The translations under genes were made by a program, and so were the position numbers. From Candidatus Desulfolinea nitratireducens (GTDB lineage: Bacteria; Chloroflexota; Anaerolineae; Anaerolineales; Villigracilaceae): DNA of 35,887 nt. A model generated the notes under the pieces. That model saw only the letters and a program-made list of their open reading frames with translations. It did not search any database and was not told where the DNA came from. The stretch covers positions 1 to 35,887 of the forward strand of contig JACNJN010000114.1 of assembly GCA_014382535.1 (NCBI GenBank). The letters are read 5' to 3'. Shown one piece after another: positions 12,441 through 35,887 of the stretch. Within the stretch, counting starts at the first letter, position 1, and every line of letters starts with the position of its first letter.

Positions 12441-14144
12441 TTAACTCTCTTCAATATCTTCAATTTTGCCAGGGTTGGGAATTTCTGTCGTCAATTCAAT
12501 TTTGCTGGCTCCCAAGGCCTCTTTGAGTTCATCTAATGCAGTTTGGATCATTACCTGTGGATCGTTTGTACTGCGAATTTTGGTTGTGATCTCAGAAACC
12601 AAACGCTCACGGCCTGCACGGCGGGTTGTATCCTCAAGGAGGCGGGCGTTATCCAAGGCTAAAGCAAAACGGTCAACTGTTGCCTGGATGATCTCTAATT
12701 CATCTTCTGTATATTGTGCTACAGGTTTATCGAGATCAACATTGAGATAACCAATCACAATATTCCTAAGTTTAACAGGAAGTTTGTATACAGAGTCGTT
12801 ATTTATCGTTTTGCCATCCATTTGTAAGGGTTCGTTGATTGCTTCCAAGCCGGTTGTCCGGGCTCGATACCCTATGATATCGCTTAAATTACCAAAGCGG
12901 CTCCACTCATTTTTCAGATAGCGCTGGAAGGTGGTATCAAGTTCCTGAAGGGTATCCTGCGATTGCTGGAAAAGCCGTGCATTTTCGATTGCGACTGCGA
13001 CTTGATTTGCAAGCGTCGATAGACCCTCAATATCCTCCCCTGAAAATGCGTTTGTCTCCTCGCTCTGCACATCCAACACGCCAATGACCTCATTACCAAT
13101 CATCAATGGCAGGGCCATTTCAGAATGAGTGTTCGGTAAATCGGGGTTGTCAAAATAGGTTGCGTCATTGCCAACATCCAGCGCTATGCGCGCTGTTTTT
13201 AGATCGACTGCAGAGCCTACAATACCCTCCTGTCCCACCCGGAGTTGGTGATCACGAGCCAGCATGGCTTGCCCACCACCGCTATTTGATGCGCGCAACA
13301 CCGCATATTGTTTATTTTCAGATAGGAGGAAAATACCAATGTGATAGTAACCAAAACGCTCACTAACTGTCCTGGTAATATGAGGTAATAGTTTATCCAT
13401 TTCTTGTAATGAGGCAACCGAGCTTGCTACATCAGCGATGGCCTCAAGTTGTGATGCTCGTTTCTGAATTTGAGTAGAACTGCTTTCCAGATCGAGAGTG
13501 CGCTCATGAACGCGTTGCTCGAGATTTACCTGTAGAATTTGCAGCTCTTTATTGCTTATTTCCATGCGGCGCTCGTTTGCCTGCGCCCGTTTAGCAGCAT
13601 TTCGGAGTCCATTGTCAAGGATGAATAACAATGCCGCACTGATTATCAGGATGAAGGTGATATCAATTGCATTTTCACTCGCTGATGAATAAACAGGAAT
13701 AAAGAGACCGCTGCCTTCCAGGTATGCAAAATACCACACCGAAGCGACACTGGCTATTGTCACCAGGATACTTGCTTTCCAGCCAAGCAAAACACTGGCA
13801 ATCAAAATTACTATGAAATATGCAATTATCCCTGTATCGCGAATACCTTCGCCTCTTGCCAAATTAAAAACTGCGAACCATCCAAAAAGTATTACTGCGA
13901 CGCTTATAGAATTAACATTTCCTCGTTTTAACATTAACCAGCTGCTTATGAGAATAATGATGAGAGTTCCCAAAGTCACGAGTGTATTTAAGTTTACTGT
14001 GGAAGCAATTGTGCGAGATAACAATAATAATGCCAGGAGGAAAATCACGATCAGGAGAAGGTAATTTAATATTCCTGCCAGTCGCGTCTTTTCCTCGTCT
14101 TCAAAAATGGGAGGGCTGAACCAGCGAACAAGACCTTTTAACAT
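12441..14144 (-). CDS. 6-TM GAF receptor without output domain (receptor 10)
   Basis: The 567-residue protein has an FEDEEKTRLAG lead-in and six hydrophobic helices (about 22-43, 52-72, 80-96, 105-120, 122-142, 158-178). A coiled coil runs through about 180-230 and includes the VHERT signature. One GAF follows at about 248-392, with FGYYHIGIFLL and FDNPDLPNTHSE, where His replaces the Arg found in most siblings. The C-terminal half-GAF (about 460-567) has LPVKLRN, the TEDELEI helix, ENARLL-like DNARLLED and a final helix ending in LGASKIELT. No kinase or other enzymatic domain is present. A possible input is a membrane-embedded or hydrophobic ligand. The ATG has GAAGGT about 9 nt upstream. 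It is the last receptor before parA. Confidence 0.88.
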   Translation of the reverse strand: MLKGLVRWFSPPIFEDEEKTRLAGILNYLLLIVIFLLALLLLSRTIASTVNLNTLVTLGTLIIILISSWLMLKRGNVNSISVAVILFGWFAVFNLARGEGIRDTGIIAYFIVILIASVLLGWKASILVTIASVASVWYFAYLEGSGLFIPVYSSASENAIDITFILIISAALLFILDNGLRNAAKRAQANERRMEISNKELQILQVNLEQRVHERTLDLESSSTQIQKRASQLEAIADVASSVASLQEMDKLLPHITRTVSERFGYYHIGIFLLSENKQYAVLRASNSGGGQAMLARDHQLRVGQEGIVGSAVDLKTARIALDVGNDATYFDNPDLPNTHSEMALPLMIGNEVIGVLDVQSEETNAFSGEDIEGLSTLANQVAVAIENARLFQQSQDTLQELDTTFQRYLKNEWSRFGNLSDIIGYRARTTGLEAINEPLQMDGKTINNDSVYKLPVKLRNIVIGYLNVDLDKPVAQYTEDELEIIQATVDRFALALDNARLLEDTTRRAGRERLVSEITTKIRSTNDPQVMIQTALDELKEALGASKIELTTEIPNPGKIEDIEES

Positions 14145-14195
14145 AATATAATTACCTTCTTTTTTGGAAAGTCACTTTGTGAAAGTCAAAAAAAC

Positions 14196-16097
14196 TCATT
14201 GCTCATTATCTCCAATTTCAAGAGTTACCTCTGACGCACCCAAAACATCACGTAACTCACCAACAGCGACCTGCATCAGGCGTTCGATCTCTGTAGTTGC
14301 GCTGAGCTTTGCGGAAATATCACCGATAACGCTTTCTTTTACCGCTTGGCTTTGGGATGCCTCCAAGAGGGTTGCATTTTCTAAGGCCACACCCAAGCGC
14401 TCAGCCAATGAATTTGTTATATCTATCTCATCCGAATTCAATATTTTGTTATCCGGCAAATTGATATAAATTGTGCCAATTTCATCGCCGCGCAACCTAA
14501 TCGGAATACCAATCGATTTCAGTTTTCGTTTTACTGGTTCATTAAGAGGCCGTACAGTTCTACCTGAAAGTTCGTAACCAATTATTTTTTGTTTTTTTGA
14601 AATTTTCTGCCAGGCATCCCGGGAAAATTCTCCCAAGGAGCTTTGTGCCTCTGCTAGTAGACGTTGAGTTTCCTCGTGCAAGCGTGCGTTCTCAATGGCG
14701 ATGCTAACTTCGTCCGCCAGAATTGAAAGAACTTCAATATCATCCTCGGAAAAGGCATTTGCTTCCGTGCTTTGAACATCCAAGGCCCCAATTATCCTGC
14801 CCCCAACAAGGAGGGGTAGAGCCATTTCGGACCGTGTTTCTGGCAAATCTGGGTTATCAAAATAAACCGCATCCTCACCCACGTCCAAAGCGATCCGGGG
14901 CTGGCCTGTGCTGGTTGTAAAACCGACGATACCTTGTTCCCCGATTTTGAGCTTATGCTCACGCTCGAGCATGCGTTTTCCGCCTTCACTATTAGCAGCC
15001 CTCAAAATGGCATTTTCATTTGTGTAGTCATTGAGAAAAATACCGGTGTGGTAATAATTAAATTGCTGGCTGATAAGTTCTGTGATCTTGGGCAATACTT
15101 CATCTAATGAACGAATTGATGCAAGCGCTGCACCCACAAGAGCGATCGCTTCAAATTGCACGGCACGCCTCTCGCTCATTTGAGTGGTAGTTGATAATTC
15201 TGCAGTACGCTCTTCTACACGCGTCTCGAGCTCGATTAAAGAATTCTGCAATTGTTTATACATTCGGTCAAATGTATTGCCAAGCATCGCAATTTCATCG
15301 TTTCCCTCGATCTGAAAAGAAAAACGCAAATCATGCTGTTGTTGCTCAATTGAGGCAGCGGACCGTTCAAGGTATTCAAGCCTGTCACTAACTGAGTGTG
15401 CAATTCTATTTGCAATTAGCCACCCCAAAAACATAGCGAAAATTAAGACAAGCGCCATAAATCCGACAGTGTCCTGATATGCAGAGAAGGATACCTCGCT
15501 AAAGGCTTTTGTATAATTATTATTTGCTTCATTAAGCAATCTCAATTCTTGCTGCACAAGGATCAAACGAGATTTCGTGTTTTCAACGAAGAATTCATCA
15601 CGCATACCTGTGATGTCAAGCTCTTGAAATTGATTCTCCACAATTAAGTATTGAACAAATGCCTGCCGCAACGATACAAAAGTATCCAATTCCTGGTTTT
15701 GTAATTCAATGAGATTATTATCTTGAATCATGGCGGATAGTTCTGCATTATTTGTTGAAAGATGGACCTCTTCATAATTCTCAATAATGCTTTGCACATT
15801 GATCTTGGCAATATTCATCGCTTCTCTTTGACGCGCTTGTTCATCAGGCGAAATGTTTGGAGAAAGAAGTGCGTCAAAGATGGATTGCACCTGCAATATA
15901 GATTCACTTAATTGCGTGGTCGCAATATTTGAATTAATAATTTGGTTATAACTAATTGCCAATGTAGATTGAATCGTTTGCATGCCAAAAATTCCCGACA
16001 CAAAAATACTAAGCAACCCAAAAACCATAATGACGGTAATTAGATTTAGTTTCCTGTTTACCGATATTCTTGTCAGAAAGCTTGTTTGCTGGTTCAT
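14196..16097 (-). CDS. 4-helix-bundle/HAMP/GAF receptor without output domain (receptor 9)
   Basis: With the start used here the protein has 633 residues. TM1 (about 17-38) and TM2 (about 210-231) flank a helical extracytoplasmic domain of about 170 residues that looks like a chemoreceptor-type four-helix bundle. HAMP follows (about 231-283), with a coiled coil to 315. The GAF (about 328-472) has FNYYHTGIFL and RIALDVGEDAVYFDNPDLP. The half-GAF tail has IPIRLRGDEIGTI and ends in LGASEVTLEI. ATG at 16097 (MNQQTSFL) is chosen because it begins 13 bp after the upstream stop; the longer possible start at 16166 would overlap the previous gene by 56 bp. GAGG lies 11 nt upstream of the ATG. It lacks the MCP signalling hairpin despite its chemoreceptor-like input half. 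Confidence 0.86.
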   Translation of the reverse strand: MNQQTSFLTRISVNRKLNLITVIMVFGLLSIFVSGIFGMQTIQSTLAISYNQIINSNIATTQLSESILQVQSIFDALLSPNISPDEQARQREAMNIAKINVQSIIENYEEVHLSTNNAELSAMIQDNNLIELQNQELDTFVSLRQAFVQYLIVENQFQELDITGMRDEFFVENTKSRLILVQQELRLLNEANNNYTKAFSEVSFSAYQDTVGFMALVLIFAMFLGWLIANRIAHSVSDRLEYLERSAASIEQQQHDLRFSFQIEGNDEIAMLGNTFDRMYKQLQNSLIELETRVEERTAELSTTTQMSERRAVQFEAIALVGAALASIRSLDEVLPKITELISQQFNYYHTGIFLNDYTNENAILRAANSEGGKRMLEREHKLKIGEQGIVGFTTSTGQPRIALDVGEDAVYFDNPDLPETRSEMALPLLVGGRIIGALDVQSTEANAFSEDDIEVLSILADEVSIAIENARLHEETQRLLAEAQSSLGEFSRDAWQKISKKQKIIGYELSGRTVRPLNEPVKRKLKSIGIPIRLRGDEIGTIYINLPDNKILNSDEIDITNSLAERLGVALENATLLEASQSQAVKESVIGDISAKLSATTEIERLMQVAVGELRDVLGASEVTLEIGDNEQ

Positions 16098-16110
16098 GCT
16101 ATTTTGAGCC

Positions 16111-18579
16111 TCATGCTTGATCCTTATCAGTAAGCTGAATGACGACATCTGCTCCAGGTATGACACGGCCTAATTCCTCAACGGCAGTTTGCAGAACGTT
16201 GCGAATATTGATGGATGCAGCACCAATATTGGAGGAAATATCACCAATAACTTGCTCCTTGGATGCCCGCCTCTGGCTTTCCGATAGCAAACGGGCATTT
16301 TCCATGGTAATGGCAGCACGCTCAATAATGGCAGTGGCTATATCTAATTCATCCTGAGTCCATGGGCGCTTACCACCGCCCTGTATCTTTATTTCTCCAA
16401 TTTTCTGCCCGCGTAAAATAATTGGAAGATTTAGCATTTCAACGTCATTCAGGTCATCTTTTGCAATTGGTTCCTTTAGCAAAGTGACCTTTCCTTTTCT
16501 GCGACGAAGACCAGCCAGGTTTTCTGAAAGCTTAAATTGATCCCAGCCTAATATTGTCCCCTGCTGTGAGACCAATACTGATTGCGCCAAAGCGTATCGT
16601 GCTTCCTCGTAAAGGCGCGCGTTATTGATCGCAATACTTACCTGATCTGCCAGGGTTGAAAGTGTGTCGATATCTTCTTGAGAAAACGCATTGGGCTCAA
16701 CGCTTTGTACATCAAGAGCACCAATTATTTGGTTGCCGACAAACATTGGTAATGCCATCTCAGAACGGGTGTTGGGCAGATCTGGATTATCAAAATATAT
16801 ATTATCCTGTCCGGTATCCAAGGCGATTCGTGCCTTTCCTCGACTGGTAACAAAGCCGACAATACCAGTTTCCCCAACCTTGAGTTGGTGATTTCGCTCC
16901 AACATTTCCTTGCCACCAGGACTGTTTGCAGCACGCAAAACTGCAAATTCCTTCGATTCATCAAGCAAAAAGACTCCAACATGATAAAATCCAAAATTTT
17001 GGCTAATTACCTCTGTGATATTTGGTAAAAGAGTTTCGGAATTTTGCGAAGTACTAATGCTGCGTGCAACTTGCGCGATGGCCTCAAACTGTACAGCTCG
17101 ACGCTGGCTTTGCTCGCTGGCCTCTTCAAGCTCAGTTGTACGTTCTACAACACGTTCCTCCAGGCTCCCCAACATTTCTTTGAGCTGGGCCGTCATTCCT
17201 TTGAAGGCTTCAGCCAGAACATGAACCTCTTCAACGGAGATTTTGGGAATATTTACTTCCAAATCTCCTTTGCTAAATTGGATAGCTGCGGTTCTTAGTT
17301 GGTTTAGGGGTGTAGTTAACACCCGGCTTACTCCAAAGCTGATTACCATAGCGCCAATTACTATCGCAATCAGCATGAGTAATCCGAAAATCTGTGATTG
17401 TTGATTATTCTCGGCCACCATTGCCTGAGCCTCGCGGTAGGCTGTTTCCATTTCAGCTGCTGGCACAATCACGCCAAGGCTATAGCCTGTGGATGAAACA
17501 GGTGCATAGGCCATATAATGTTCTACCTCATTGATTTGAGCACGGATTTGTCCGGTGTTGCCCGAGGCCATATCTTGAAACTGTGATTGTAAATCCTGCG
17601 GTCCCTGTTTTAGTGATGCAAGTTGTGATTCTTCACCCTCGAGGGTTTCCTCGCGAAGAATTCCAAAGTTTGAGTAGCCAAGATCAGGCATGGCGATAAT
17701 ATTATTTGAGGAATCACTCAAAAAAGCGTAACCAGTTTGGCCAATCTTAATATTCAAAACCTGGGTGGTTATCGTTTCCAATTTAACATCGGCGCCAACC
17801 ACGCCATGAAACTTCCCACTTTTGTCTATGACTGGAACACTGCTTGTAACCACCATACCATGTTGAGCTGCGTCAACATAAGGTTCAGACCAAATTACCT
17901 GGATAAGGTCATTGGAAAGGGAATTCTCTGCTTGCAGGAACCAAGGTCGCTTTGAGGGATCAAATTCTGGCGGTACCAATGTGGCCAGGTCGATATTGGG
18001 ATAATAAGATGTATATCCATCGTAGTTACCAAAGTAGACAGCCAAAATATTGGCATTATTTTCAACAATATCTGGTACGAAAAAATCAAGGTGACTGACT
18101 GCGTTGGCAATTGTGACTGTCTTTGTAGTGAGTTGAAATGTCGAGGGGGCAAAGATTGATGCCGGATCACTATTTGAGTTATCCCAACCGCCACCCTGTA
18201 TGCGATTCAGCTCTTCACTCGCATCCCAGTAATTAGTTCCGGCGATGGCTGTATCCTGACTGAGCAGGTTGGCCGCATAATTAGCTGTTGCGTTTACTTG
18301 TCTGTCAATTTCAGTAAAGAAGTCATTTATGATTTGGGCCTCCCCAGAGGCAAGTGCGGCAATTTGGTTTTCAGTCTTATCTTTCTCTGCATTTTGGATT
18401 TGGTCACCCAGGAATTGCTGTGTTTCGTTGTTGCTGGTGATAAGAAAATAGCCTACAGCAATTGCTGCCAGCACGGCAGTTAATGTTGTGGAAAGTGCGA
18501 TACGCCCTCGCAGAGATGATCTCCGCGGCTGGCGTTGACTGGTTATTTCCTTGATGGGGTTGCCTGATTCGAGGTTCAT
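16111..18579 (-). CDS. dCache/HAMP/GAF receptor without output domain (receptor 8)
   Basis: The 822-residue protein has TM1 at about 27-48, a large extracytoplasmic double-Cache domain (about 50-390), TM2 at about 397-419, HAMP (419-470), a coiled coil, GAF (about 510-655, FGFYHVGVFLLD) and the half-GAF tail (about 700-822, LPIILRGQKIG and WTQDELDIA). The Cache contains FDPSKRPWF, with Arg211, Trp213 and Phe214, followed by Tyr234 in SEPYVD and Asp264 in GVVGADVKL. This resembles the amino-acid-binding dCache signature with Phe in place of both tyrosines, so an amino acid or related ligand is possible (inference). ATG at 18579 has AAGGTG 5 nt upstream, overlapping the end of the previous gene region. 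Confidence 0.9.
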   Translation of the reverse strand: MNLESGNPIKEITSQRQPRRSSLRGRIALSTTLTAVLAAIAVGYFLITSNNETQQFLGDQIQNAEKDKTENQIAALASGEAQIINDFFTEIDRQVNATANYAANLLSQDTAIAGTNYWDASEELNRIQGGGWDNSNSDPASIFAPSTFQLTTKTVTIANAVSHLDFFVPDIVENNANILAVYFGNYDGYTSYYPNIDLATLVPPEFDPSKRPWFLQAENSLSNDLIQVIWSEPYVDAAQHGMVVTSSVPVIDKSGKFHGVVGADVKLETITTQVLNIKIGQTGYAFLSDSSNNIIAMPDLGYSNFGILREETLEGEESQLASLKQGPQDLQSQFQDMASGNTGQIRAQINEVEHYMAYAPVSSTGYSLGVIVPAAEMETAYREAQAMVAENNQQSQIFGLLMLIAIVIGAMVISFGVSRVLTTPLNQLRTAAIQFSKGDLEVNIPKISVEEVHVLAEAFKGMTAQLKEMLGSLEERVVERTTELEEASEQSQRRAVQFEAIAQVARSISTSQNSETLLPNITEVISQNFGFYHVGVFLLDESKEFAVLRAANSPGGKEMLERNHQLKVGETGIVGFVTSRGKARIALDTGQDNIYFDNPDLPNTRSEMALPMFVGNQIIGALDVQSVEPNAFSQEDIDTLSTLADQVSIAINNARLYEEARYALAQSVLVSQQGTILGWDQFKLSENLAGLRRRKGKVTLLKEPIAKDDLNDVEMLNLPIILRGQKIGEIKIQGGGKRPWTQDELDIATAIIERAAITMENARLLSESQRRASKEQVIGDISSNIGAASINIRNVLQTAVEELGRVIPGADVVIQLTDKDQA

Positions 18580-18589
18580 AACTGCACCT

Positions 18590-20281
18590 TTATTTATTGC
18601 TCTCTAGCTGAATGATGATATCCGAACCGCCTAAGGCCTGTTCCAGTTCTTCCGCTGTTGCCTGCATGATGCTTTCTACATCCAGCGCTGCACTGATGCG
18701 CGTAGCTCCTTCTGAAATGACGCGCTCTTTTGTAGCTCGCCGTTGGGCATCTTCCAGCAGCCGGGCGTTTTCCAGCGCAATTGTGGCACGCTCTATTGTA
18801 GATTGAATCAAACCAATCTCATCATCCGTCCACTCGCGATTTTTGTCAGCTGATTTAAGTTTAAGGTGACCAATTATTTTTCCGCGGAGGCTCAACGGAA
18901 GGATCTTATTTGCTTCAAATTTGACCTTTGTCTTGATATCTGTTGTGATTGGTTTTGACTCTACACCATCATAGTGGTACCCGGTTATGGTCTGTTCTTG
19001 TGCGTAACTTTTCCAGGCCACACTTGTTTGCTGCGCATAAGCATCCTCGGTGTCCCTTAGTGCAATCTGGGTTTGTTCGAGAAGTCGGGCATTTTGAATG
19101 GCAATAGCTACCTGGTCGGCCAGAGTAGTGAAAACCACCAAATCTTCATCGGAAAAAGCATTCACCTCTGTAGATTGAATATCCAATGCACCTATGTACT
19201 CGGAACCAAGGCGGAGGGGGATTGCTATTTCCGAACGGGTTTCAGGGAGATCCGGGTTGTCGAAGTAGACGGAATCAACCCCAACGTCCAGGGCGATACG
19301 GGGCTGTCCTGTTTTAACGGCGTAGCCCACAATTCCTTCTTTACCAATTTGAAGTTGATGACCCCGATTCAACATTTTCTGACCGCCAACGCTATTAGCC
19401 GCACGCAAAACGGTATTATTATCCTGGGTATCATTTAAGAAAATGCCCACATGGTAATAGCCAAGTTGTTGACTAATGGATTTGGTAGTAGTGGAAAGGA
19501 GATCGTTAATATCCTGCATGTTGGTAAGAGAGCGAGCAATATTTGCTATGGCGGTTAACTGCTCCGCTCGACGAGATATTTGCTTGTTTGAAAGTGCAAG
19601 ATCGTTTGTTCTTTCATTCACGCGTTGTTCAAGATTTCCACTTAAGGATTCTAGTTCCTGATTGATGGTGAGCAACTCTTCTAATCTTATTTTTTCAGTG
19701 TTATCACGATAATTGGCTAACAAGATGAGCACGACACCGATCACGCCAATGATCGCGGTTTGGGCTATAAGATTTTCAGGAAGGGTTATTCCAATAAATT
19801 GGAGGGACAGGAATAATACAATATTTAGCGCTGTTAGAAGAAGCAGTGCCCAGGAGGAAAGAAATGAGCCGGCAACAATCAGACTAAGAGGTACATAACT
19901 TAGGATCAAGGTGGCAATATCCGCCTGGCTTCTCTGGATAAAGATCGTTATATAAGCTGTTGAGCTGAAACTTAGAGAGAAGATGAAAATCGAAACCCGG
20001 AACCATTTTGTTCTGGAAAACCCGTAAGCGAGCAGGCTTGTAATCAGGGCAAAGATAATTTCAGGCGCAAATGCTATTTCATACCCATCACGGATTAAGA
20101 CGACGATACGACCAATTAAGTTTAAAATGAATATTGCAAATAGAAATGTTGCCGCCAGGCGTGCAGAGCGCTGATCGCCAATATCTTTTAGCGCAGAGGA
20201 GGGTGATGCAAGAAAATCCCAAAAAGATCTTTTGGATTTAGGTATATTTGGCTCTGGTATTGGTTTGATTTCAGAATTCAC
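18590..20281 (-). CDS. 6-TM GAF receptor without output domain (receptor 7)
   Basis: The 563-residue protein has a cytoplasmic lead (1-40), six hydrophobic helices (about 43-63, 72-88, 94-115, 122-140, 142-164, 172-190), a coiled coil (about 195-245), GAF (about 255-400, LGYYHVGIFL and RIALDVGVDSVYFDNPDLP) and a half-GAF tail with LPLSLRGKIIG, WTDDEIGLI and LENARLLEDAQRRA. No output domain is present. The start is GTG at 20281 with AGGAG 7 nt upstream. An ATG just upstream (20281-20283) is read in another frame and is followed at once by TGA (ATGTGA), so it cannot start this protein. The sensed ligand is unknown; the membrane bundle is the only input besides the GAF. Confidence 0.87.
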   Translation of the reverse strand: MNSEIKPIPEPNIPKSKRSFWDFLASPSSALKDIGDQRSARLAATFLFAIFILNLIGRIVVLIRDGYEIAFAPEIIFALITSLLAYGFSRTKWFRVSIFIFSLSFSSTAYITIFIQRSQADIATLILSYVPLSLIVAGSFLSSWALLLLTALNIVLFLSLQFIGITLPENLIAQTAIIGVIGVVLILLANYRDNTEKIRLEELLTINQELESLSGNLEQRVNERTNDLALSNKQISRRAEQLTAIANIARSLTNMQDINDLLSTTTKSISQQLGYYHVGIFLNDTQDNNTVLRAANSVGGQKMLNRGHQLQIGKEGIVGYAVKTGQPRIALDVGVDSVYFDNPDLPETRSEIAIPLRLGSEYIGALDIQSTEVNAFSDEDLVVFTTLADQVAIAIQNARLLEQTQIALRDTEDAYAQQTSVAWKSYAQEQTITGYHYDGVESKPITTDIKTKVKFEANKILPLSLRGKIIGHLKLKSADKNREWTDDEIGLIQSTIERATIALENARLLEDAQRRATKERVISEGATRISAALDVESIMQATAEELEQALGGSDIIIQLESNK

Positions 20282-20294
20282 ATTCGTACTCCTG

Positions 20295-22163: not shown

Positions 22164-22223
22164 TGCGAGCACCTTATAATTGTGAATATGTTGATTTGCA
22201 TGCGGGTAATCCTGATTCTTGAT

Positions 22224-23390
22224 TTACGGGCGGGACATCCCGGTAACATCTCCGCCGAGATTATCTATGCTGTCATACAATATTTGTAAGACATAATCGC
22301 TATTGTGGGCATATGCACCTGGATCATGGGTCAGATAGTTATAGTTATATGCAGCTCGTAGCAGACGGGGAGTCCAGGCATTGTACGCGTTATCAGAAAG
22401 ATTCTCTTCCAAATCAATCAGACCATTATTGTTTGTGTCTATGAAATAGTATGGGTGGGTTTCAAGATCATATGCAATCGGGATCCCGACAATTTGCACA
22501 GAATAGGCTTTAATTGTCGAATAAAGAGTTTCCTGAAGGGCACTAATTTCGTAGGCAATTCCTTCAGAAATATCACCGTCACCGTCATAATCGGTAGTAT
22601 CCACACGAATATCCCGGGGGTCAGTTCCTGTAAAAGTATGGCACTCCCCACATGTTTCAAATTTCAGTTCCAGGCTGTGTTGGTTGTGGCAATCAAGACA
22701 AGAAAAGAAATCCTCGCCCCGGTTAAAGCGACCTTTATACGTATTTCCTGCGTATTGGTAGGCCCCTTGTACTTCAGTGCCAAATGGTGTTGCGGCTGAG
22801 GTGGAGTGGCTATTTATGAACTCAAGCTCAGTACTTGGTACATCAAGATCTACAAGCGCTAATTCGGCAATCGCCTTGTCGACAGTTGATGTTGATGCAC
22901 GACCTTGGTGACATAATATGCAGCGGACCTCAGGTCCGAGTAGGCGAAGGGTTGACCCCGAAGGAAATACAACACTTGCCAGATCCTCAAATGCCTCATT
23001 ATGACAAACATAACAGGTAATTGTAGTGCCGGTTTTTGCGGAATTGTCGACCTGATTAATCGTAGTACCGTCAATACCCAGAAAATCTATCAATCCCGGT
23101 CTGCTGTGGCATTTGGCGCAGTCGACAGGAATCTCTTGAGGATCATCTTCATTCCAGTGGGTGAAGGCCTCTGCCTCTGCATCTGCATGAGCAGATGTAA
23201 ACCAAAGATCCTGATAACTCTCTGGCACTGGACAAACCAATGTTTCGCATTCTGGACAGGTAAATGGTTTGGCCGAGGAAGTTGGCACTTCAATTTTTGG
23301 ACTACAAGCATTCAAAACAGTCACTGCTCCAATCATGAAAGCTAAAACGAGCCACGACATATTCTTGTGGGAAGTTCTTTGTACTCCCAT
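22224..23390 (-). CDS. Pentaheme c-type cytochrome lipoprotein with EF-hand loop
   Basis: The 388-residue exported protein has a lipoprotein signal peptide ending in the lipobox LNAC (Cys29). Five CxxCH motifs bind heme c at Cys91, Cys126, Cys157, Cys231 and Cys247. An early CPEC/CP cluster (Cys45, Cys48, Cys53) lacks the histidine. Near the C-terminus DTNNNGLIDLEE (318-329) matches a canonical EF-hand calcium loop, and DYDGDGDISEG (267-277) is a weaker one. The tail with DPGAYAHNSDYVLQ recalls other multiheme cytochromes. It should transfer electrons on the outer face of the membrane. It overlaps the upstream receptor gene by 1 bp (TAATG) and has AGGAG 7 nt ahead of the ATG. It is the only non-receptor gene inside the receptor array. 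Confidence 0.9.
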   Translation of the reverse strand: MGVQRTSHKNMSWLVLAFMIGAVTVLNACSPKIEVPTSSAKPFTCPECETLVCPVPESYQDLWFTSAHADAEAEAFTHWNEDDPQEIPVDCAKCHSRPGLIDFLGIDGTTINQVDNSAKTGTTITCYVCHNEAFEDLASVVFPSGSTLRLLGPEVRCILCHQGRASTSTVDKAIAELALVDLDVPSTELEFINSHSTSAATPFGTEVQGAYQYAGNTYKGRFNRGEDFFSCLDCHNQHSLELKFETCGECHTFTGTDPRDIRVDTTDYDGDGDISEGIAYEISALQETLYSTIKAYSVQIVGIPIAYDLETHPYYFIDTNNNGLIDLEENLSDNAYNAWTPRLLRAAYNYNYLTHDPGAYAHNSDYVLQILYDSIDNLGGDVTGMSRP

Positions 23391-27975: not shown

Positions 27976-27978
27976 TGC

Positions 27979-30213
27979 CTAGTCCTCAATTCTATTCTCA
28001 TCGGAGATATTTAATCGCACTTCCGCTTCATCAAGGCCAAATGTTTTTTTCATCTCCTCGAGGGCGGTTTTAACAACTGTGTCCATATCAAGGGTTTCGC
28101 GCAATCTGGAAGAAAATTGAGTGATAAGTTGATCGCGATATGCTTGTTCACGTGTTTCGTTCACAAGCCTGGAATTTTCGACTGCCAGCGCAACTTGATC
28201 GGCCACCTCCGAGGCAAGGGCCTGTTCTTTCTGTGTCCATTTTCTTGTACTTCTTTTCAACGATATATTCCCGATCTTTCTCCCACGAAGTATTATCGGT
28301 GAATCAGATAGCTCATCATCTTTTCCTATACTTTCGGACAACCCTTCTGATGCTAGAGGTTTAATTTCAAGGGGCGTATAAAGGAAACCATGAGATTTTT
28401 TCTCCAAATGCTCCCTCCAAACACTTCTTGTTTGCTCAGCTGCAAATGCCTCCAATTGGGCAATGTTCACCTGGGCTTCCTCACGTAAGCGTGCATTTTG
28501 AATTGCCAGAGCCACCTGATTTGCAAGTGTTAGCAATATCTCGACATCCTGTTGCGCAAAAGCCTGAGATTCTGTAGATTGGATATCCAAAATACCAATA
28601 ACATCCTCATTAATAAGCAATGGGAGGGCAATCTCTGAGCGAGTTTGTGGCAAATCAGGATTGTCAAAGAAAATTGCGTCTTTACCAACATCCAATGCAA
28701 TATGCGGACGGCGAGCCACGGCAGTCGTACCCACGATCCCCTCTCTGCCTACTCTGAGTTGGTGGCCCTTCTTCAACATTTGTTGTCCACCCTCAGATGA
28801 CGCTGCCTGCAATATGGCGTATTCCTTTTTATCGTCAAGGAGAAAAATGCCAGTGTGGTAGTAATTAAAGCGTTCAGTAATAAGATTCGCTACATTTGTC
28901 AGTAAAGTTCTAACATCCTGGATGGTGAGGGCATCTTGGGCAACTTGGGCCGCCGCTTGTAATTGTACGGCTCTATACTCAAGATCCTCAGTACGTTCTG
29001 ACACTCGTTGTTCCAGGCTGCCGACAAGATCTCGAAGTTGAGCGGTCATGGTATTGAAAGAGTTGGCAAGTGTAACCAACTCAGTACCACCAGTGATTTG
29101 CACTGACTGGGTCAAATCACCCTGCCCCAGCCTTTGAGCTGTATCACTGAGTTGGTTCAAAGGTCCAATGATGCGTCGCGCTAGCACGAACGCGGCCAAA
29201 GACCCTAGCCCCAGTGCCAAAGCTGAAACAACTATCAATGCCAACCTGCTCTGATCACTCACAGTTTGTAGCTGATCGCGAGCACGAGTAAAGCCAGCAT
29301 CACCTCCCCGGAGTATGTCGCTTGTGACTTGGTTGATATCCACCGTCACTTCTCTGAAAACAGCGGTGTTGATTTCGATATTTCCTTCTAAGGCTACTAA
29401 CTCTATTAGATGATCTTGATATATCCCGATTAAATCAAGTAGTTCTAAGACAGGTATCTGTACCGTTTCTTCTGGTGGATCGGATGCTGGGTCAGGAATT
29501 GCCACTATTTCTTCCGGGAGATCTACCTGAGAGCTGTTTTGTACCAGATCGGTAAACTCGAGTATCAACAATCGAAGGTTGTCATAATATTGCTGCTGTC
29601 CTGTGTTTAAATAGGATTGCTCATTGGCCCGAATTTTCAAAACCAGTTGATGGAACTCAGGATTTGGCAAAGGGGAAACGATGGCTTCAAGCTCGTTGAG
29701 CTTTGTGTTCAGCGTGTTCTCTTGTCCATCGGGGCGACTGCGCTCTTCGATATCGGTGACAACGGCTTGAAAAGCAGATTCGTAAGTATCAAGCAAAGGA
29801 ACCAAACTGGCAGTATCCTCCAGAATGAGCTGTAGTTCCGGATCGCCCGAATTTTGAACTAAACTGTCAATTTCGTTTAGCTTACTGCGGGCTTGCTCTA
29901 AGTGTAGTTCATTAGTTGATACGTATTTGTCCTGAGCCGTTTCAAACCCCAAGGAACGCCAGGAAGCCAGGAAGTTTGATTCGGCTTGGCGGGCTTGCAG
30001 GAACTCGGTCTTGATTTCCAGGCTCAGCTCACGAATTCGATTGGATTCATCAAGTGTAGTTTGAACACTCTTTTGCAAGCTCTGCAAACTCTGATAGCCA
30101 ATGAGAGCAATCACCAGAGCCAAAACCAATATCAACCCAAACCCAAACACGAGTTGGGATCGAATTGAGCCAATGATACGATTAGGCTTTGATGAGGGTT
30201 CAGGTGATGTCAT
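27979..30213 (-). CDS. HBM-like/HAMP/GAF receptor without output domain (receptor 3)
   Basis: The 744-residue protein has TM1 (about 20-40), a long helical extracytoplasmic domain of about 285 residues, TM2 (about 325-345), HAMP (346-400), a coiled coil with VSERT, GAF (about 430-575, FNYYHTGIFLL with His453, FDNPDLPQTRSE) and the half-GAF tail (SPIILRGRKIGNI, WTQKEQALA, VENSRLVNETREQAY). The helical input is too long for a single four-helix bundle and resembles the helical bimodular (HBM) type that binds organic acids in some chemoreceptors; this call is from length and helix pattern only. A Pro-rich insert splits it. The ATG has AAAGG 8 nt upstream. It follows the largest gap in the array (114 bp), which may hold an internal promoter. 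Confidence 0.87.
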   Translation of the reverse strand: MTSPEPSSKPNRIIGSIRSQLVFGFGLILVLALVIALIGYQSLQSLQKSVQTTLDESNRIRELSLEIKTEFLQARQAESNFLASWRSLGFETAQDKYVSTNELHLEQARSKLNEIDSLVQNSGDPELQLILEDTASLVPLLDTYESAFQAVVTDIEERSRPDGQENTLNTKLNELEAIVSPLPNPEFHQLVLKIRANEQSYLNTGQQQYYDNLRLLILEFTDLVQNSSQVDLPEEIVAIPDPASDPPEETVQIPVLELLDLIGIYQDHLIELVALEGNIEINTAVFREVTVDINQVTSDILRGGDAGFTRARDQLQTVSDQSRLALIVVSALALGLGSLAAFVLARRIIGPLNQLSDTAQRLGQGDLTQSVQITGGTELVTLANSFNTMTAQLRDLVGSLEQRVSERTEDLEYRAVQLQAAAQVAQDALTIQDVRTLLTNVANLITERFNYYHTGIFLLDDKKEYAILQAASSEGGQQMLKKGHQLRVGREGIVGTTAVARRPHIALDVGKDAIFFDNPDLPQTRSEIALPLLINEDVIGILDIQSTESQAFAQQDVEILLTLANQVALAIQNARLREEAQVNIAQLEAFAAEQTRSVWREHLEKKSHGFLYTPLEIKPLASEGLSESIGKDDELSDSPIILRGRKIGNISLKRSTRKWTQKEQALASEVADQVALAVENSRLVNETREQAYRDQLITQFSSRLRETLDMDTVVKTALEEMKKTFGLDEAEVRLNISDENRIED

Positions 30214-30327: not shown

Positions 30328-32259
30328 TTAATCCGCATCAGATTCGTCCAGAATATTTAGTTCTATCGTAGCTTCGGACGCGCCGAGGGCGCCTCCAAGT
30401 TCCTTGAGCGCTGTTTTTAAAATTCCGTCTGTGGTATTGGATGACCATATTTTGCTGGTAATCTCTGCGACGAGCCGTTCTTGCAAGGCGACTTGTTGGC
30501 TTTCTTCAAGAAGCCGGGCATTTTCAAGTGCAAGAGCTGTTTGTGTAGCAACCGCTTCAACCCAGCCTCGATCTTCTGTGGTCCAGTCTGATGCCCCATC
30601 AAGGGTGATTTCTCCAATGATCTGATCCCTTAAGGCCAATGGAATATTAAGCAAAAATTCATCTGATAGTGGCTTCTCCCCAGCTGAAAATTCAAGGTTA
30701 GCATGAGTATCCATTGCTCCAGACCAGGCATCAGATAGCTGTATTTGCTGGCTTGTACGAATTTCTTTCAAAGCTTGCTGTGCTTCCTGAAATAAACGTC
30801 CATTTTCGAGAGCAATAGCTACTTGATTTACCATGCCCTGTAATGTTTCAATATTCTCTTCATCAAAAGCATTTTCTTTTGTCGACTGTGCATCAAGCGC
30901 ACCTAGAACATTCCCGCCAACAATGAGAGGAAGGGCGATCTCAGAGCGGGTGTTTGGGAGCAGGGGATTATCAAAGCGGACGGCTTCGCGTCCAACATCA
31001 TGTGCGATTCGAGCCTCTCTCAAGTTAATCGCAGATCCCACCATGTTGTTACCCGCTATGGGTAGTCGATGTTTTTTTGCTTGCAGCTCTTTCCCGGCTT
31101 CACCTGTTGCACTTCTTAACTCTGCCCAGCGTCCATCCGGAGAGACAATAAAAATGGCAGCGTAATAATAGCCCAGCCTTTCTGTAATAAGATTGACAAA
31201 TTTTTCAATCAGCTCTTCGGGATTAAGAATTGAACTGACTGCTCGTCCCACTTCCGATGTGGCTTTAAGTTGTTCTGTACGCTCCATGATTTGCTTTTCA
31301 AGATTGCCCTGCAATTTATCAAGACGGGAAACCATGTGGTTGAAATATACCGCTAATTCTCCCACCTCGTCAGTTGCAGTCACCCTAGCTCTTTGAGTAA
31401 GATCCCCCGCTTCGATTTTCTTAAAAGTATTAATGAGTTGCTGAAGAGGGGAAGATACTGAGGTGGCAAATAAAGCTGAAAGGATGATGCCAAAAATAAT
31501 CGTTAAAAATGCAACAACCAGAGATTGAATTTGCATTGTTTGCAAAACGGAAGGATCGCCTGTTTCCAGAGCTTTGACTGTCTGATGATAACCAATGGGA
31601 GCAACAAGGAGAATACTTGTTAATACCAACGCGAGGGATATGCTTTGTAATTTGACAGATATATTTATGCCTTTAGCACCAGCAATACCCTCTGTAAAAC
31701 CTTTGGGTAGCAATACTTCCCGCGCTGGAACCAGAAGTAGATCGAGCAGTAGTAACGAAAGGGAAGAGCTTCCCAAAATTGCTGCAAATGCTCCCAACAA
31801 TGTGTAGATGATTTGATTTGTGCTAACTTCCAAAACAAATGCCTGATATAAGAGCATCGGTATCATTGTGGCCGCGAGTCCCCCGACAAATAGAAATAGG
31901 CTAAAACGCCACCCAAGCGAGGTTATTTGATGCCAGGCGGTAAGATCATCCTGTGAGTCACTTGAAAAACTTATTCCAGATCTCCATGAATTTAGTTTTT
32001 TGCGCACATCACTATATAAAACAAAGATAACGGCAAAAACAATAATATTGGCAATCAGAAGCCCAAGTAGGGCAAATTTTGCCAAGGCTGCTAGCTCATC
32101 TGTTGTAAACTCCGCATTTACTTGAATCGAATATTCTGCTGCAATCGTACTAATGCTTGAGAAAATTTGGGTAAATAATACTGCAATAACCAGATATAAC
32201 CCACCCGTGCGACGCAGTATTTTATGGAGAACTGTGGTTTTTTCTACTGGATTATTCAT
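30328..32259 (-). CDS. 6-TM/HAMP/GAF receptor without output domain (receptor 2)
   Basis: With ATG at 32259 the protein has 643 residues. Six hydrophobic helices lie at about 20-42, 61-82, 117-140, 148-172, 203-223 and 245-266, followed by HAMP (266-318), a coiled coil, GAF (about 345-490, LGYYYAAIF and RIAHDVGREAVRFDNPLLP) and the half-GAF tail (IPLALRDQIIGEI, WTTEDRGWV, LENARLLEESQQVAL). This 6-TM plus HAMP layout is like that of some membrane adenylate cyclases, but no cyclase follows. The start is ATG at 32259, with GAGGG 5-6 nt upstream and an 8-bp overlap with the previous gene. The longer possible start (GTG at 32292) would overlap by 41 bp and is less likely. Confidence 0.87.
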   Translation of the reverse strand: MNNPVEKTTVLHKILRRTGGLYLVIAVLFTQIFSSISTIAAEYSIQVNAEFTTDELAALAKFALLGLLIANIIVFAVIFVLYSDVRKKLNSWRSGISFSSDSQDDLTAWHQITSLGWRFSLFLFVGGLAATMIPMLLYQAFVLEVSTNQIIYTLLGAFAAILGSSSLSLLLLDLLLVPAREVLLPKGFTEGIAGAKGINISVKLQSISLALVLTSILLVAPIGYHQTVKALETGDPSVLQTMQIQSLVVAFLTIIFGIILSALFATSVSSPLQQLINTFKKIEAGDLTQRARVTATDEVGELAVYFNHMVSRLDKLQGNLEKQIMERTEQLKATSEVGRAVSSILNPEELIEKFVNLITERLGYYYAAIFIVSPDGRWAELRSATGEAGKELQAKKHRLPIAGNNMVGSAINLREARIAHDVGREAVRFDNPLLPNTRSEIALPLIVGGNVLGALDAQSTKENAFDEENIETLQGMVNQVAIALENGRLFQEAQQALKEIRTSQQIQLSDAWSGAMDTHANLEFSAGEKPLSDEFLLNIPLALRDQIIGEITLDGASDWTTEDRGWVEAVATQTALALENARLLEESQQVALQERLVAEITSKIWSSNTTDGILKTALKELGGALGASEATIELNILDESDAD

Positions 32260-35200
32260 TCGTACCCTCAGTTTCGGAGTTATGTTCAACACCTACTTTA
32301 ACCTGGGTGTGTTGTGCGCCAATTGCTTTGTTCAATTCAGTTGCTGTGGTTGACAGAATGGTTTGAACATTTGTTGAGCTGCGAATTTTACTCGTAATAT
32401 CATGAAGCGTTCGGTCACGTTCGGCTCTCCGGCGAACCTGCTGAAGCAACCGGGCATTTGCAATAATGGCAGCAAGACTACCGGCGAGAGTTCCGAGCAT
32501 TTCTTCATCATGCTCATCATAGGCGGCTTCCTGTTCGCTCTCGACATTTAGAACTCCCAGGAGTTCACTCCTGAAAATTAGGGGAATTGCTAATTCAGAG
32601 CGTGTATTAGCGCTAACGGCGAAATAGCGTGAATCGGTTGGTGCATCATCAATCCGCAACAGTTTTTTATTTCTTGCCACCCAACCCGTGATGCCACTTC
32701 CAAAGGGAATATTAATCTCTGCAATATCCTCTTCAGAGTATCCGATAGCCGCGCCGACGGTCAACTTCTCTTGTTTGTTATTTGCGAGGAGGATGGCTAC
32801 GCGGTCACCACCTAATGTGACCTGTAGACCCTGCACTGCACCATTTAGAGCCTCTTCAAGTGTTGTTCCGGATGCAGCGGAGGTAGTGATATGATGGATA
32901 AGGCGGTGTTGAGATAGATGCTCTTGGGTTTCTGCAAATAGCTCTGTATTATTAATACCAACAGCCAATTGATCAGCGATAATATTGAGAGTTTGTATAA
33001 TCTCTTGGGAAAATGCGTATGGTTCATTACTGTGCACATCCAATACGCCGAGAATTCGCTCGCCAATTTTGAGCGGAATGGCTGTTTCCGCACGGGTATT
33101 TGGTAATAAGGGGTTTTCCTGATAAGTAGGGTCTGTTTCTGTGTTATCGATAGTCAGCGCCTCTCCGTGCCCAGAGACATATCCAACGGGAGAATTTGAG
33201 CCAACACCCAGCCTGAAACCGTTCCGCTTAAGTTGGGCTCCGGCTTCACCTGTTGCCTCGCGAATTACCGCGTAATGCTGCAAATGGTCGACAAGAAATA
33301 TTGCTGCATGGTAAAAACTAAAGCGTTCCTGGATCATGGTGACAGCATTATTGAGCAACTCATCCAAATTGAGAGAGCCACTTATATCACGAGCGATCTC
33401 AGCTGCGCTTTCCAATTGGATGGCTCTTTTATGGCTTTCCTCCAGAAGTTGAATATTGTAGATTGCTCCAGATACCTGGGCGGTTAGGGATTTGAGAAAA
33501 CGGAGAGAATTCTCATCAAAACTGTTTTCATTTTCGAAATCCTGAACAATTATGGCTCCGATTACCTTTTCACTAACCAGGAGTGGACAGCCAAGCCAGG
33601 ATTTTGGTGGTTTGTCGTCAAGAACTGCACCTAAAGCGGCAGAACGCATTTTGGTTTCTTCAACAATCATAAGGGGTTGTGCTGTGCGGATAATAACGGA
33701 TGTTAGACCCTCGCCCAGCGAGAAAGAGGGGACACTGGATACTGTTCCTGCTTCATAGTTATAGGGGATATTTATGGTGCTGCTAACCTCGTCATACAGG
33801 GCGACGGCGAATGGATAATCTCCCAAGACTTGGCGTGATTGTTCATGCAACGATGGATATAGAGAGTTTAGATCCTTTGCAGCTATGACAGCCTGACTTG
33901 TTAGGGAGATCGCTTCGAGCTCAGTCAGGCGTCTGTCTGTCAATTCTGTTGCCTTAATTTTATCAAGTGTAATGGCAATCATTTCGATAAAGTTTGTATA
34001 AGGCTGTACCGCCGTTTCGGTCAGGTAATCTTTTTGGCGGGAGCCGATCATGATTAGCGCAGTAAATTTTCCACCCTGGGTCAGGGGTAAAAGCGATATT
34101 GCCTGACAGCCAAATTTGCGAGGAATACTGATAAATTCCTTTGGCAAAGTTGTAGGAGACCCTAAATCAATAATTAGGTCTTCTTTATCTTTAATGCGTT
34201 CTGTGAGCTCACTGGGCTGGATATCTATATACTCAGGCAGGGCAGCTAAAGTAATAATTTGATCAGGGTCTGATGCAGAGAAAATGCCCAATCCTTTGCC
34301 TTTAGGCGTAAAAATAGCGGAAATGAAGGGAGAATTTTGTAAAATTCGGCCAGTTAATTTAAAAGTACCTTCTATCGTATTCTCTTGAGCAATATCTCTG
34401 CTGGCCCGATAAAGCCTGTCAAGTTCATAGATGTTGACATCAGAAGATTTGAAAAGGCCAACATTTTGAATTGCGGTAGCTATTTGATTGGAGAGCGTTA
34501 CAAGGATCTCAATAGTAGCATCGTCGAAGGCTTCGGGATGGGTGCTTTGGACATCCAAAACACCGAGAACTGTATCTCCGATAGCAATTGGGATGCCTGC
34601 TTCTGCGCGAGTTTCAGGAAGAAGATCGTTCCTAAAATGAACAGGGTCATCTCCAACATCAGAGGCGGCCCGCGGCTGATTGTTTTTTGTCACCCATCCT
34701 ACAATGGATGCAGATCCGACATCCAGGCGATGTCCCCGCTCCAGCATTTGTTGTGCCGAAGGACCATAGGCTGATTTGAGGATAGCAGTCGTTCCGGAGC
34801 GCTCTACCATGAAAATGCCTGCGTGGTAGTATCCAAAGCGTTCAACAATCAGGCGAGTTGTTTTACCGAAGAGTTCGTCCAAATTGAAGGTTGAAGCAAT
34901 ACTCTGGGCAACCTCAGAAGCCGTGCGGATGTATTCGGTGCGTTCTTCAACTTGAGATTGAAGTGACTGGTATAACGTGCTTAAATCATCGGCCATCTGG
35001 TTAAATGAATAAGCTAATTCTCCAATCTCATCATTGCGTTTTACAAAGAAGCGTGCCAGCCAATCTCCTTCAGAAAATTTACGAGCAGTTTCAGATAGAT
35101 CTTGTATAGGTTGTACAATCCGACTGCTAGCGACCCAAAGAACTACTCCCATTGCAATGAGTGTGATCATAAATAAGATGATAAAGAAGGGGACCAGGTT

Positions 35201-35887
35201 ATCTATTTGTCCGAAAGCGATTTCATTAGGTATTTCAAGGACAACCTGGCTATGAACTGATGTAATTTGGTGAGATTGTGCAACAACCGGTATCTCCAAG
35301 TTATTTTCGAAATCTAAAGAGTGGAAGATTTCTTCTGCCTCCTCAAGAGGAGGCTGTTCCAAAAAACTACTGAATACATTTTGCTGCTCCTGCGAGGGAT
35401 CAAAGGCTACCAATTGTTTTGTATATGGGTCTATCCCAATATAAACACCATTGGAAGAAATGATATATGCGCTTGTACTGGGGTTGAATAAAGTGGTCTC
35501 ATTGAGAAAGTCTTTTATTGCATCCTTTCCGGTCAGCCCAACTAAAATACCTAGATCTTCCCCTGTTTTTGCTTTTAGGGGTTTGGTTGTAAAGATATAA
35601 AATTCATTAGGAAAGAGTGGGGAGAGACCGTAAAGCCCAACAGAGTCTGCTTCTCCGGTAATTTGAGGGTAGTAGGGAGATTCTGCCAATGAAACTCCGT
35701 GCCAGGCATAATTTGTAGAAGCGTAAATTACGCCTTCAGGATTCATTATAAAGAAAGAGTGAAAAAGAGGTTGCCCTTCGGGGCGGTTTACGATATCGAA
35801 TTCTTCCAGTAATTGTTTGCGATAAATACTCGAATCGTTTCTTATAAGATTTTCTGCTGCTTCCTGAAAGCCAGGGCGACGACCGAT
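32252..35887 (-). CDS. dCache/HAMP/multi-GAF receptor, 5' end outside window (receptor 1)
   Basis: At least 1211 residues are visible. The frame stays open to the right edge, with 47 codons upstream of the internal ATG at 35746, so the true start lies outside the window and that ATG falls inside the sensor domain. A Cache-like extracytoplasmic sensor (visible part to about 230) is followed by TM (about 232-253), HAMP (about 254-305), a coiled coil, and about five GAF or GAF-like domains: FGYYHAGIF, a weak one, one with YPFAVALYD, FSFYHAAIF, and one with GDRVAILL. The usual tail helix follows (NARLLQQVRRRAERDR). Here the last GAF is full length, unlike the half-GAF of the siblings. No kinase or other output domain is present. 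It overlaps the next receptor by 8 bp. Confidence 0.85.
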   Translation of the reverse strand: MGRRPGFQEAAENLIRNDSSIYRKQLLEEFDIVNRPEGQPLFHSFFIMNPEGVIYASTNYAWHGVSLAESPYYPQITGEADSVGLYGLSPLFPNEFYIFTTKPLKAKTGEDLGILVGLTGKDAIKDFLNETTLFNPSTSAYIISSNGVYIGIDPYTKQLVAFDPSQEQQNVFSSFLEQPPLEEAEEIFHSLDFENNLEIPVVAQSHQITSVHSQVVLEIPNEIAFGQIDNLVPFFIILFMITLIAMGVVLWVASSRIVQPIQDLSETARKFSEGDWLARFFVKRNDEIGELAYSFNQMADDLSTLYQSLQSQVEERTEYIRTASEVAQSIASTFNLDELFGKTTRLIVERFGYYHAGIFMVERSGTTAILKSAYGPSAQQMLERGHRLDVGSASIVGWVTKNNQPRAASDVGDDPVHFRNDLLPETRAEAGIPIAIGDTVLGVLDVQSTHPEAFDDATIEILVTLSNQIATAIQNVGLFKSSDVNIYELDRLYRASRDIAQENTIEGTFKLTGRILQNSPFISAIFTPKGKGLGIFSASDPDQIITLAALPEYIDIQPSELTERIKDKEDLIIDLGSPTTLPKEFISIPRKFGCQAISLLPLTQGGKFTALIMIGSRQKDYLTETAVQPYTNFIEMIAITLDKIKATELTDRRLTELEAISLTSQAVIAAKDLNSLYPSLHEQSRQVLGDYPFAVALYDEVSSTINIPYNYEAGTVSSVPSFSLGEGLTSVIIRTAQPLMIVEETKMRSAALGAVLDDKPPKSWLGCPLLVSEKVIGAIIVQDFENENSFDENSLRFLKSLTAQVSGAIYNIQLLEESHKRAIQLESAAEIARDISGSLNLDELLNNAVTMIQERFSFYHAAIFLVDHLQHYAVIREATGEAGAQLKRNGFRLGVGSNSPVGYVSGHGEALTIDNTETDPTYQENPLLPNTRAETAIPLKIGERILGVLDVHSNEPYAFSQEIIQTLNIIADQLAVGINNTELFAETQEHLSQHRLIHHITTSAASGTTLEEALNGAVQGLQVTLGGDRVAILLANNKQEKLTVGAAIGYSEEDIAEINIPFGSGITGWVARNKKLLRIDDAPTDSRYFAVSANTRSELAIPLIFRSELLGVLNVESEQEAAYDEHDEEMLGTLAGSLAAIIANARLLQQVRRRAERDRTLHDITSKIRSSTNVQTILSTTATELNKAIGAQHTQVKVGVEHNSETEGTNE

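Follow-up and report, generated by a model that had tools for sequence, protein, structure and literature searches.

The window analyzed here is an entire contig of Candidatus Desulfolinea nitratireducens (JACNJN010000114.1, contig C17; 35,887 bases), from an assembly of 3.65 Mb that is 97.9% complete. It carries an array of ten receptor genes (R1 to R10) together with genes for a ParA-family protein, a hybrid histidine kinase, and a PALP-family enzyme with a receiver (REC) domain. The list of open reading frames (ORFs) places all ten receptor genes in a row on the minus strand between 12441 and 35887. This agrees with an initial annotation made from the sequence alone, as does the single break in the row, a pentaheme cytochrome gene between R5 and R6. 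The features on which the argument rests are as follows:

R1, 12441..14144, minus: five hydrophobic segments, coiled coil, GAF, half-GAF tail
R2, 14196..16166, minus: two hydrophobic segments around a probable periplasmic domain, HAMP, coiled coil, GAF, tail
R3, 16111..18579, minus: dCache_1 (100 bits), HAMP, GAF, tail
R4, 18590..20281, minus: five hydrophobic segments, GAF, tail; last 356 residues modeled
R5, 20295..22172, minus: Mcp40H-like diheme sensor (CWGCH, CQTCH), HAMP, GAF, tail
c-type cytochrome, 22224..23390, minus: five CxxCH motifs; probable lipoprotein (lipobox by eye)
R6, 23390..25036, minus: MASE11 membrane sensor, variant GAF, tail
R7, 25033..27975, minus: seven hydrophobic segments and weak dCache, HAMP, GAF, tail
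R8, 27979..30213, minus: helical-bundle sensor (4HB_MCP_1 under cut-off), HAMP, GAF, tail
R9, 30328..32292, minus: six hydrophobic segments, HAMP, GAF, tail
R10, 32252..35887, minus: weak Cache, HAMP, four GAF stretches, last tail segment only; 5' end cut by the contig end
array ParA, 11610..12395, minus: Walker A NEKGGVAKT; clade distinct from chromosomal ParA
hybrid kinase, 7454..11641, minus: likely start ATG 11641; peptide MSKKQINNRLDKLFDDIKEEE, Pro-rich linker, half-GAF, GAFs, HisKA, HATPase, two REC
putative ParA-binding peptide of the kinase, 11579..11641, minus: 21 residues, conserved by sequence profile

Above the Pfam cut-offs, the ten receptors match only GAF families, HAMP, dCache_1, MCP-like_PDC_1, Mcp40H-20_sensor, and MASE11, and none has an output domain. 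Matches below the cut-offs (E ≤ 0.1) bear scattered names, among which HisKA, HATPase, GGDEF, EAL, cyclase, and MCPsignal do not occur, and no STAS match appears in any receptor at E ≤ 0.1. A scan of eight of the ten receptors with NCBIfam returned zero matches at cut-off. No RNA elements or tRNAs were found in the window. The lack of output domains noted in the initial annotation is borne out by these searches. Among the N-termini, the dCache_1 of R3 lies above the cut-off, whereas the Cache domains of R7 and R10 and the helical-bundle (4HB) domain of R8 are matched below it, and R6 begins with MASE11 (69.7 bits).

Nine of the receptors have the same tail behind the core GAF. It opens with a helix in which one Trp is invariant, continues with a half-GAF and a long helix, and breaks off within a further GAF, of which only the first part is present before the protein ends. 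The layout of coiled coil, GAF, and half-GAF tail had been ascribed to all ten; R10 departs from it, since this protein contains four GAF stretches and has only the last tail segment in common with the other nine, the 5' end of its gene being lost at the contig end. The GAF signature is likewise present in nine receptors, with R6 the only one to lack it as judged by eye. The AlphaFold2 model of the C terminus of R4 (predicted local distance difference test [pLDDT] score of 88.6, 73-row alignment) consists of a helix, the GAF, a long helix, a four-stranded mini-GAF, a second long helix, and a loose end. That alignment (A4) combines 9 window sequences with 64 of 128 non-redundant receptor pieces; the other structure alignment (A3) has 48 rows. 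In a Foldseek search with the receptor C terminus, the best 50 matches were GAF-domain proteins. When the longest ORFs are taken, the spacing of the receptor genes runs from a 56-bp overlap, which depends on the choice of start, to 114 bp, plus the cytochrome interval; the upper value agrees with the initial annotation and the 8-bp overlap given there does not.

The pentaheme cytochrome stands between the diheme receptor R5 and the MASE11 receptor R6 and may feed redox input. A role as periplasmic partner of the neighboring receptors would fit the extra genes found inside the arrays of three relatives, where, of six scanned, five encode solute-binding proteins (three NMT1, one Peripla_BP_6, and one ABC_sub_bind) and one has no match. 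Orphan solute-binding proteins were seen within the receptor arrays of loci L055, L060, L061, and L074.

Conservation and distribution of the locus

The order receptors, ParA, hybrid kinase, PALP-REC, and EamA transporter is kept in all 17 relatives' arrays that were read closely, with genome G032 adding an adaptor gene between ParA and kinase. It is also kept in those named loci (80 of 426 relatives) whose contig extends upstream, except L103. Most of the 80 named relatives are titled as assemblies of Anaerolineales, Anaerolineae, or unclassified Chloroflexota. Across the window and the 17 relatives, the tail genes of each array, 6 to 14 in view, all lie on one strand. The median gap between them is 3 bp, and 135 of 137 gaps measure at most 60 bp, intervals of at least 600 bp being set aside. 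Such tight one-strand spacing across 18 arrays is more than chance, and the comparison of sequences indicates that the array is an old conserved unit.

The tail also marks the end of the receptors in these relatives, as all 167 receptor-type proteins of the 18 arrays stop within 39 residues of the tail profile and no output domain follows it. Among 170 further receptor-type proteins of the named loci, many of which are cut at contig ends, two extend more than 39 residues past the tail, through a doubled tail in L134 and a split kinase fragment in L156. The receptor with the doubled tail module lies at L134:3435-6683. No MCP or catalytic domain was found in the tails, and no main-locus array lacks a linked kinase among the surroundings read. 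Ahead of the first receptor, 11 of the 17 relatives' arrays have two stand-alone CheY-like receivers, with their phospho-acceptor residues kept as judged by eye. G004 shows one, at the contig start, and the stretches of G032, G048, G014, G027, and G015 stop short of the site, as the window contig does.

At E ≤ 1e-10, the tail profile matches in 58 of 60 relatives, a level that other GAF proteins also reach. At E ≤ 1e-25, it is found in 45 of the 50 relatives with a full-length PALP-REC versus none of the 10 without one, and in 30 of 400 genomes drawn evenly from the phylum, 24 of which belong to the family of the window. Some genomes carry a second, paralogous locus with PALP-REC, kinase, and tail-like proteins (L209, L210, L211, and L212). 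One record titled Blastopirellula marina (L125) bears an Anaerolineales-type locus and is probably a mislabeled assembly, and a genome listed as of the same phylum only (G070:C528, L175; 8% contamination) has several strong tail matches on one contig, through either transfer or contamination.

The hybrid kinase, its half-GAF, and natural fusions

The domain scan of the locus kinase gave HisKA, HATPase, REC, and GAF and no CheA domain, so that the HisKA, HATPase, and receivers of a two-component phosphorelay are present at the locus. The initial annotation proposed that the receptors signal through this downstream multi-GAF kinase. The proposal gains support from the four receptor-kinase fusions described below; the description as a mainly GAF kinase is not general, as several relatives' kinases have PAS domains.

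Ahead of its other GAFs, the kinase has a half-GAF, which comprises the C-terminal half of the domain only. With a profile of this segment, scores of 45 or more are reached by 81 of 91 kinases or ParA-partner proteins, and the 226 other GAF stretches in them score at most 40.1. In the kinases of G047, G059, G042, and G036, the half-GAF lies behind a PAS region (48 to 66 bits), and that of G058 scores 62 bits; these first four were candidates for kinases without a half-GAF, rejected when Pfam and the profile found it there. Ten proteins score below 45, namely, four paralogous-locus kinases, the G032 kinase, L156, L103, L199 (G045), L202 (G046), and L207 (G038). In G032 the half-GAF resides on the adaptor (72), and in L156, where the gene is split, on the first fragment (108.5).

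The main-locus kinases that remain without a half-GAF, exactly L103, L199, L202, and L207, are those with an in-frame fusion of a receptor-like core upstream of HisKA. The L207 protein joins a membrane segment, core GAF, and full tail (78.9 bits, profile positions 2 to 147) to HisKA. The L199 protein contains MASE11, GAF, and half-GAF and aligns with R6 over 532 residues, and that of L202 contains GAF, tail (43.9 bits), and GAF. In L103, shared with G023, the fused part is the multi-GAF region of R10 (58% identity over 544 residues), and ParA, receptors, and peptide are also gone; the genome holds no full-length tail elsewhere, the best match being partial (78 bits). Receptor and kinase are thus separate polypeptides in the window and all 17 array relatives and a single one in four divergent lineages. 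These fusions make the kinase the obvious partner of the receptors, and the two very likely act in one pathway. Because only the fused kinases lack the half-GAF in the main locus, the segment appears to be kept where receptors must find the kinase and to be missing where the two already form one protein.

The kinase half-GAF profile scores 110.6 against the tail half-GAF versus 62.5 against the core GAF. A Trp occupies the same place in 46 of 48 kinase half-GAFs and 48 of 73 tails versus none of 73 core GAFs. By these sequence measures, the kinase half-GAF is of the receptor-tail kind.

Several points weigh against docking through this segment. Forty-eight of the kinases trained the half-GAF profile and so match it by construction, and the tail half-GAF scores 99.8 against the core GAF, little less than its 110.6 against the kinase half-GAF. 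Deletions that joined homologous GAF repeats could also have produced the fusions; L103 is the most plausible case. As a control for the fusions, a tail match reaching into the first ten profile positions (at least 30 bits) was found in 7 of 88 distinct complete kinases, those of G038, G046, G032, G048, and three paralogous loci; among these, the G032 kinase (65 bits) has no peptide, whereas the G048 kinase, with a weak match (31 bits), has one.

Two other ways of pairing receptor and kinase were considered. The receptors might be general purpose, pairing with many GAF kinases of the cell and merely stored together, with the adjacent kinase as one client. The genome does contain 75 GAF matches, and the GAF signature is also seen by eye in the kinase. 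Such indifference is nevertheless improbable given that strong tails are confined to relatives with a full PALP-REC and that the locus kinase has a tail-type half-GAF, one among its GAF stretches, which is lost where a receptor is fused. Alternatively, the start-of-GAF fragment that ends the receptor could complete the C-half GAF at the N terminus of the kinase into one domain. The receptors end after a first GAF segment that matches the N-terminal part of the core GAF (83% probability), and the first GAF unit of the kinase is a C-terminal half. This split-GAF arrangement is very improbable, however, as the receptor tails already hold a mini-GAF of their own and the last receptor residues form no strand in the AlphaFold2 model. 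Packing of one half-GAF on the other is the kind of contact retained below.

ParA and the peptide encoded beside it

ParA is present in all 18 arrays and in 66 of the 80 named loci, counts that admit shorter frames (stricter calling gave 17 of 18 and 65). Of the remaining 14 loci, 13 are cut by the contig end and one, L103, has no ParA. The deviant Walker A motif NEKGGVAKT is found in the window and 80 array ParA rows, in which some species appear twice, with five more rows of deviant form. In a tree that sampled 25 array ParAs and 5 from other loci, after 8 ParA-like proteins without a strict Walker motif (6 of them from arrays) were dropped, the array ParAs form their own clade (98/94), apart from chromosomal ParAs (100/97).

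The protein encoded directly after ParA starts with a peptide of the consensus M(S/P)KKxxIxxRLDKLFxDIxxEE. Among 62 distinct copies, Phe is conserved in 62, Arg in 58, the first Leu in 59, the second Leu in 57, and Glu in 54. A linker of variable length, Pro-rich by eye, follows. The AlphaFold2 model of the kinase N terminus shows a helix at residues 4 to 22, a linker with pLDDT mostly of 45 to 65, indicative of disorder, and then the folded half-GAF and a long helix. Because a strict pattern caught only 52 of 66 kinases, a profile was used, with the own locus left out. By this profile, 81 of 83 distinct genes downstream of ParA score above 4.1 (identical genes were counted once, reducing 94 to 83), and 4 of 755 other proteins of the same loci reach that level. 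These four are paralogous-locus kinases in two genomes (15.2 and 11.3), a G032 receptor (9.5), and a G048 receptor (4.1).

The peptide does not always belong to the kinase. In G032, it begins the adaptor, a soluble multi-GAF protein of 1,082 residues, and in G038 it begins a MASE11 receptor; in both genomes the kinase has no peptide. In the main-locus lineages with no ParA in view, none of the three kinases has the peptide (L103/G023, G045, and G046; the L103 kinase has the same length and start as that of G023). From these sequences, the peptide appears to track the position after ParA and not the kinase. One paralogous locus, G051b, has both the N-terminal peptide and a ParA.

The peptide was also compared with the N-termini of chromosomal ParB. 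All 61 of 61 peptides align in the same register, 53 with a shuffle P value below 0.05 (median, 0.008), and, as the 61 copies are related, this likeness counts as one observation. The ParB profile was made from 14 loci with four distinct motif sequences, these being the 14 of 30 ParB loci that gave sequence when plus-strand frames were read; minus-strand ParBs mostly begin LGKGL likewise. The comparison suggests a modest resemblance to the ParA-activating N terminus of ParB. Passages of two papers (PMC7993993, PMC10241942) describe ParA partners that work via positively charged N-termini, among them PomX, with a conserved 22-residue charged N-terminal peptide and an N-terminal domain that is Ala/Pro-rich and likely unstructured, and chemotaxis clusters that are positioned by ParC/PpfA.

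The array ParA is probably a positioning partner of the signaling proteins. A number of observations run counter to this. The G032 receptor that scores 9.5 stands outside the ParA position. G058/L200 has ParA and no peptide, and L204 has only a variant (score of −5.6), discernible in the sequence. Peptide and tail-like segments are also found at two paralogous loci, G032b and G019b, where no ParA is in view; there the peptide may have another role or use the array ParA in trans. The ParB likeness itself is modest, coming from 14 ParB loci and 61 related peptides. On these grounds the receptors and kinase could form one pathway in which the peptide is a helical oligomerization or membrane-adhesion element and ParA a neighbor with another role, with no positioning. 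The loci G032b, G019b, and G058 and the moderate ParB likeness speak for that explanation. It is unlikely, as the peptide is found on whichever protein follows ParA, be it a receptor or a soluble adaptor, and none of the three main-locus lineages in which no ParA is in view has it.

A proposed sensory array and its relation to known systems

The output side and the flanking genes comprise the following features:

PALP (threonine-synthase-like) enzyme with C-terminal REC, 5757..7436, minus: under the ThrC cut-off
EamA-family transporter, 4803..5750, minus: syntenic in relatives
divergent trio of GAF histidine kinase, REC-GAF-histidine kinase, and REC-winged-helix regulator, 140..4799, plus: adjoins the locus in most relatives

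PALP-REC is 65 to 84% identical to the copies of eight relatives, its receiver is intact, and the receiver Asp and Lys are invariant in a nine-row alignment. A role as housekeeping threonine synthase was rejected, as two other genes of the genome exceed the ThrC cut-off and PALP-REC does not.

We infer from these features that the products of the locus make up a single phosphorelay with many inputs. Some ten transmembrane receptors, differing in their sensors, would pass their state via the coiled coil and conserved GAF to a common non-catalytic tail of long helix, mini-GAF, and long helix. A single soluble hybrid kinase, encoded separately, would be contacted and controlled by these tails, most likely through packing of like on like, receptor half-GAF on kinase half-GAF. 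Phosphoryl groups would pass from the kinase to its own receivers, to the PALP-REC receiver, and to the pair of CheY-like receivers that precede the array in relatives. Its positively charged N-terminal peptide, on a disordered linker, is predicted to bind and activate the adjacent ParA, whereby ParA would space or partition the receptor-kinase assembly along the nucleoid, in the way that PpfA handles a chemoreceptor cluster. Taken as a whole, a bank of receptors docked by half-GAFs on one kinase in a ParA-positioned cluster is a reasonably probable explanation of these sequences. The candidate link to ParA, through the peptide and the separate ParA clade, the kinase half-GAF, and the paired stand-alone receivers of relatives go beyond the initial annotation and are new here.

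The initial annotation also held that no system like the array is known. No description of such a locus was found in titles and abstracts of open-licence literature, among the matches listed, but the claim does not stand for its logic, which closely resembles that of chemosensory arrays (MCP-CheW-CheA-CheY, positioned by ParC/PpfA). Both have sensor-diverse receptors with one kind of cytoplasmic end, one kinase, stand-alone CheY-like receivers (in relatives, for this locus), a dedicated ParA-family protein, and a charged N-terminal partner peptide. Unlike those arrays, the locus has no MCP hairpin, CheW, or CheA and uses GAF/half-GAF tails and a HisKA hybrid kinase. By its sequences it is analogous to chemosensory arrays, not homologous with them, and not a member of that family.

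Other known systems share parts of this design. In the RetS/GacS-type phosphorelay, several sensor proteins converge on one hybrid kinase, with the same HisKA-HATPase-REC chemistry; the sensors of the locus differ in having no kinase remnant and in forming a tandem bank of 6 to 14 in view, with ParA. In the stressosome, sensor-diverse RsbR paralogues share one non-catalytic C-terminal module on a STAS scaffold. The receptors described here resemble them in that respect and differ in having no STAS match, in being membrane bound, and in having a histidine kinase as partner. With ParA/MinD systems (PomX-PomZ, McdB-McdA, TlpT-PpfA, and ParB-ParA), the locus has in common a ParA beside a gene for a charged N-terminal peptide of about 20 residues and a Pro-rich linker. 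It is unlike them in that the partner is a histidine kinase, its adaptor, or a receptor, and activation is predicted from sequence.

Chemotaxis genes are scarce in the family. CheW is absent from the own genome and occurs in 1 of 36 genomes of the family and 8 of 60 overall, and MCPsignal above cut-off occurs in 2 of 36 and 7 of 60, respectively. The own genome has a single MCPsignal match, below cut-off and on another contig, and none in the ten receptors. On contig G000:C70, a 715-residue frame with a ParB-domain match and a sub-threshold MCPsignal match are about 2 kb apart (15476 and 17720). More tentatively, the locus may represent a separate class of bacterial sensory array without MCP, CheW, or CheA. 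In such an array, output-less receptors would dock by half-GAFs on one hybrid kinase with CheY-like receivers and be held or partitioned on the nucleoid by a dedicated ParA via a ParB-like kinase peptide, and the array would take the place of the chemosensory system across most of one Anaerolineales family. Counting against such a substitution, strong tails coexist with CheW and MCP in G032, G041, G045, and G047, with CheW alone in G040, and with MCP alone in G017, so the relation is an association and not a strict replacement.

If this interpretation is correct, multi-receptor sensory clusters with a dedicated positioning ATPase arose independently of the chemotaxis proteins, and did so in bacteria represented here mostly by metagenome assemblies. 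It makes a simple prediction, that the kinase peptide activates ParA, and the natural fusions and losses would offer a way to probe the control of a kinase by receptors that have no catalytic domain. The array would then be a candidate answer to how these mostly CheW-less bacteria integrate many signals.

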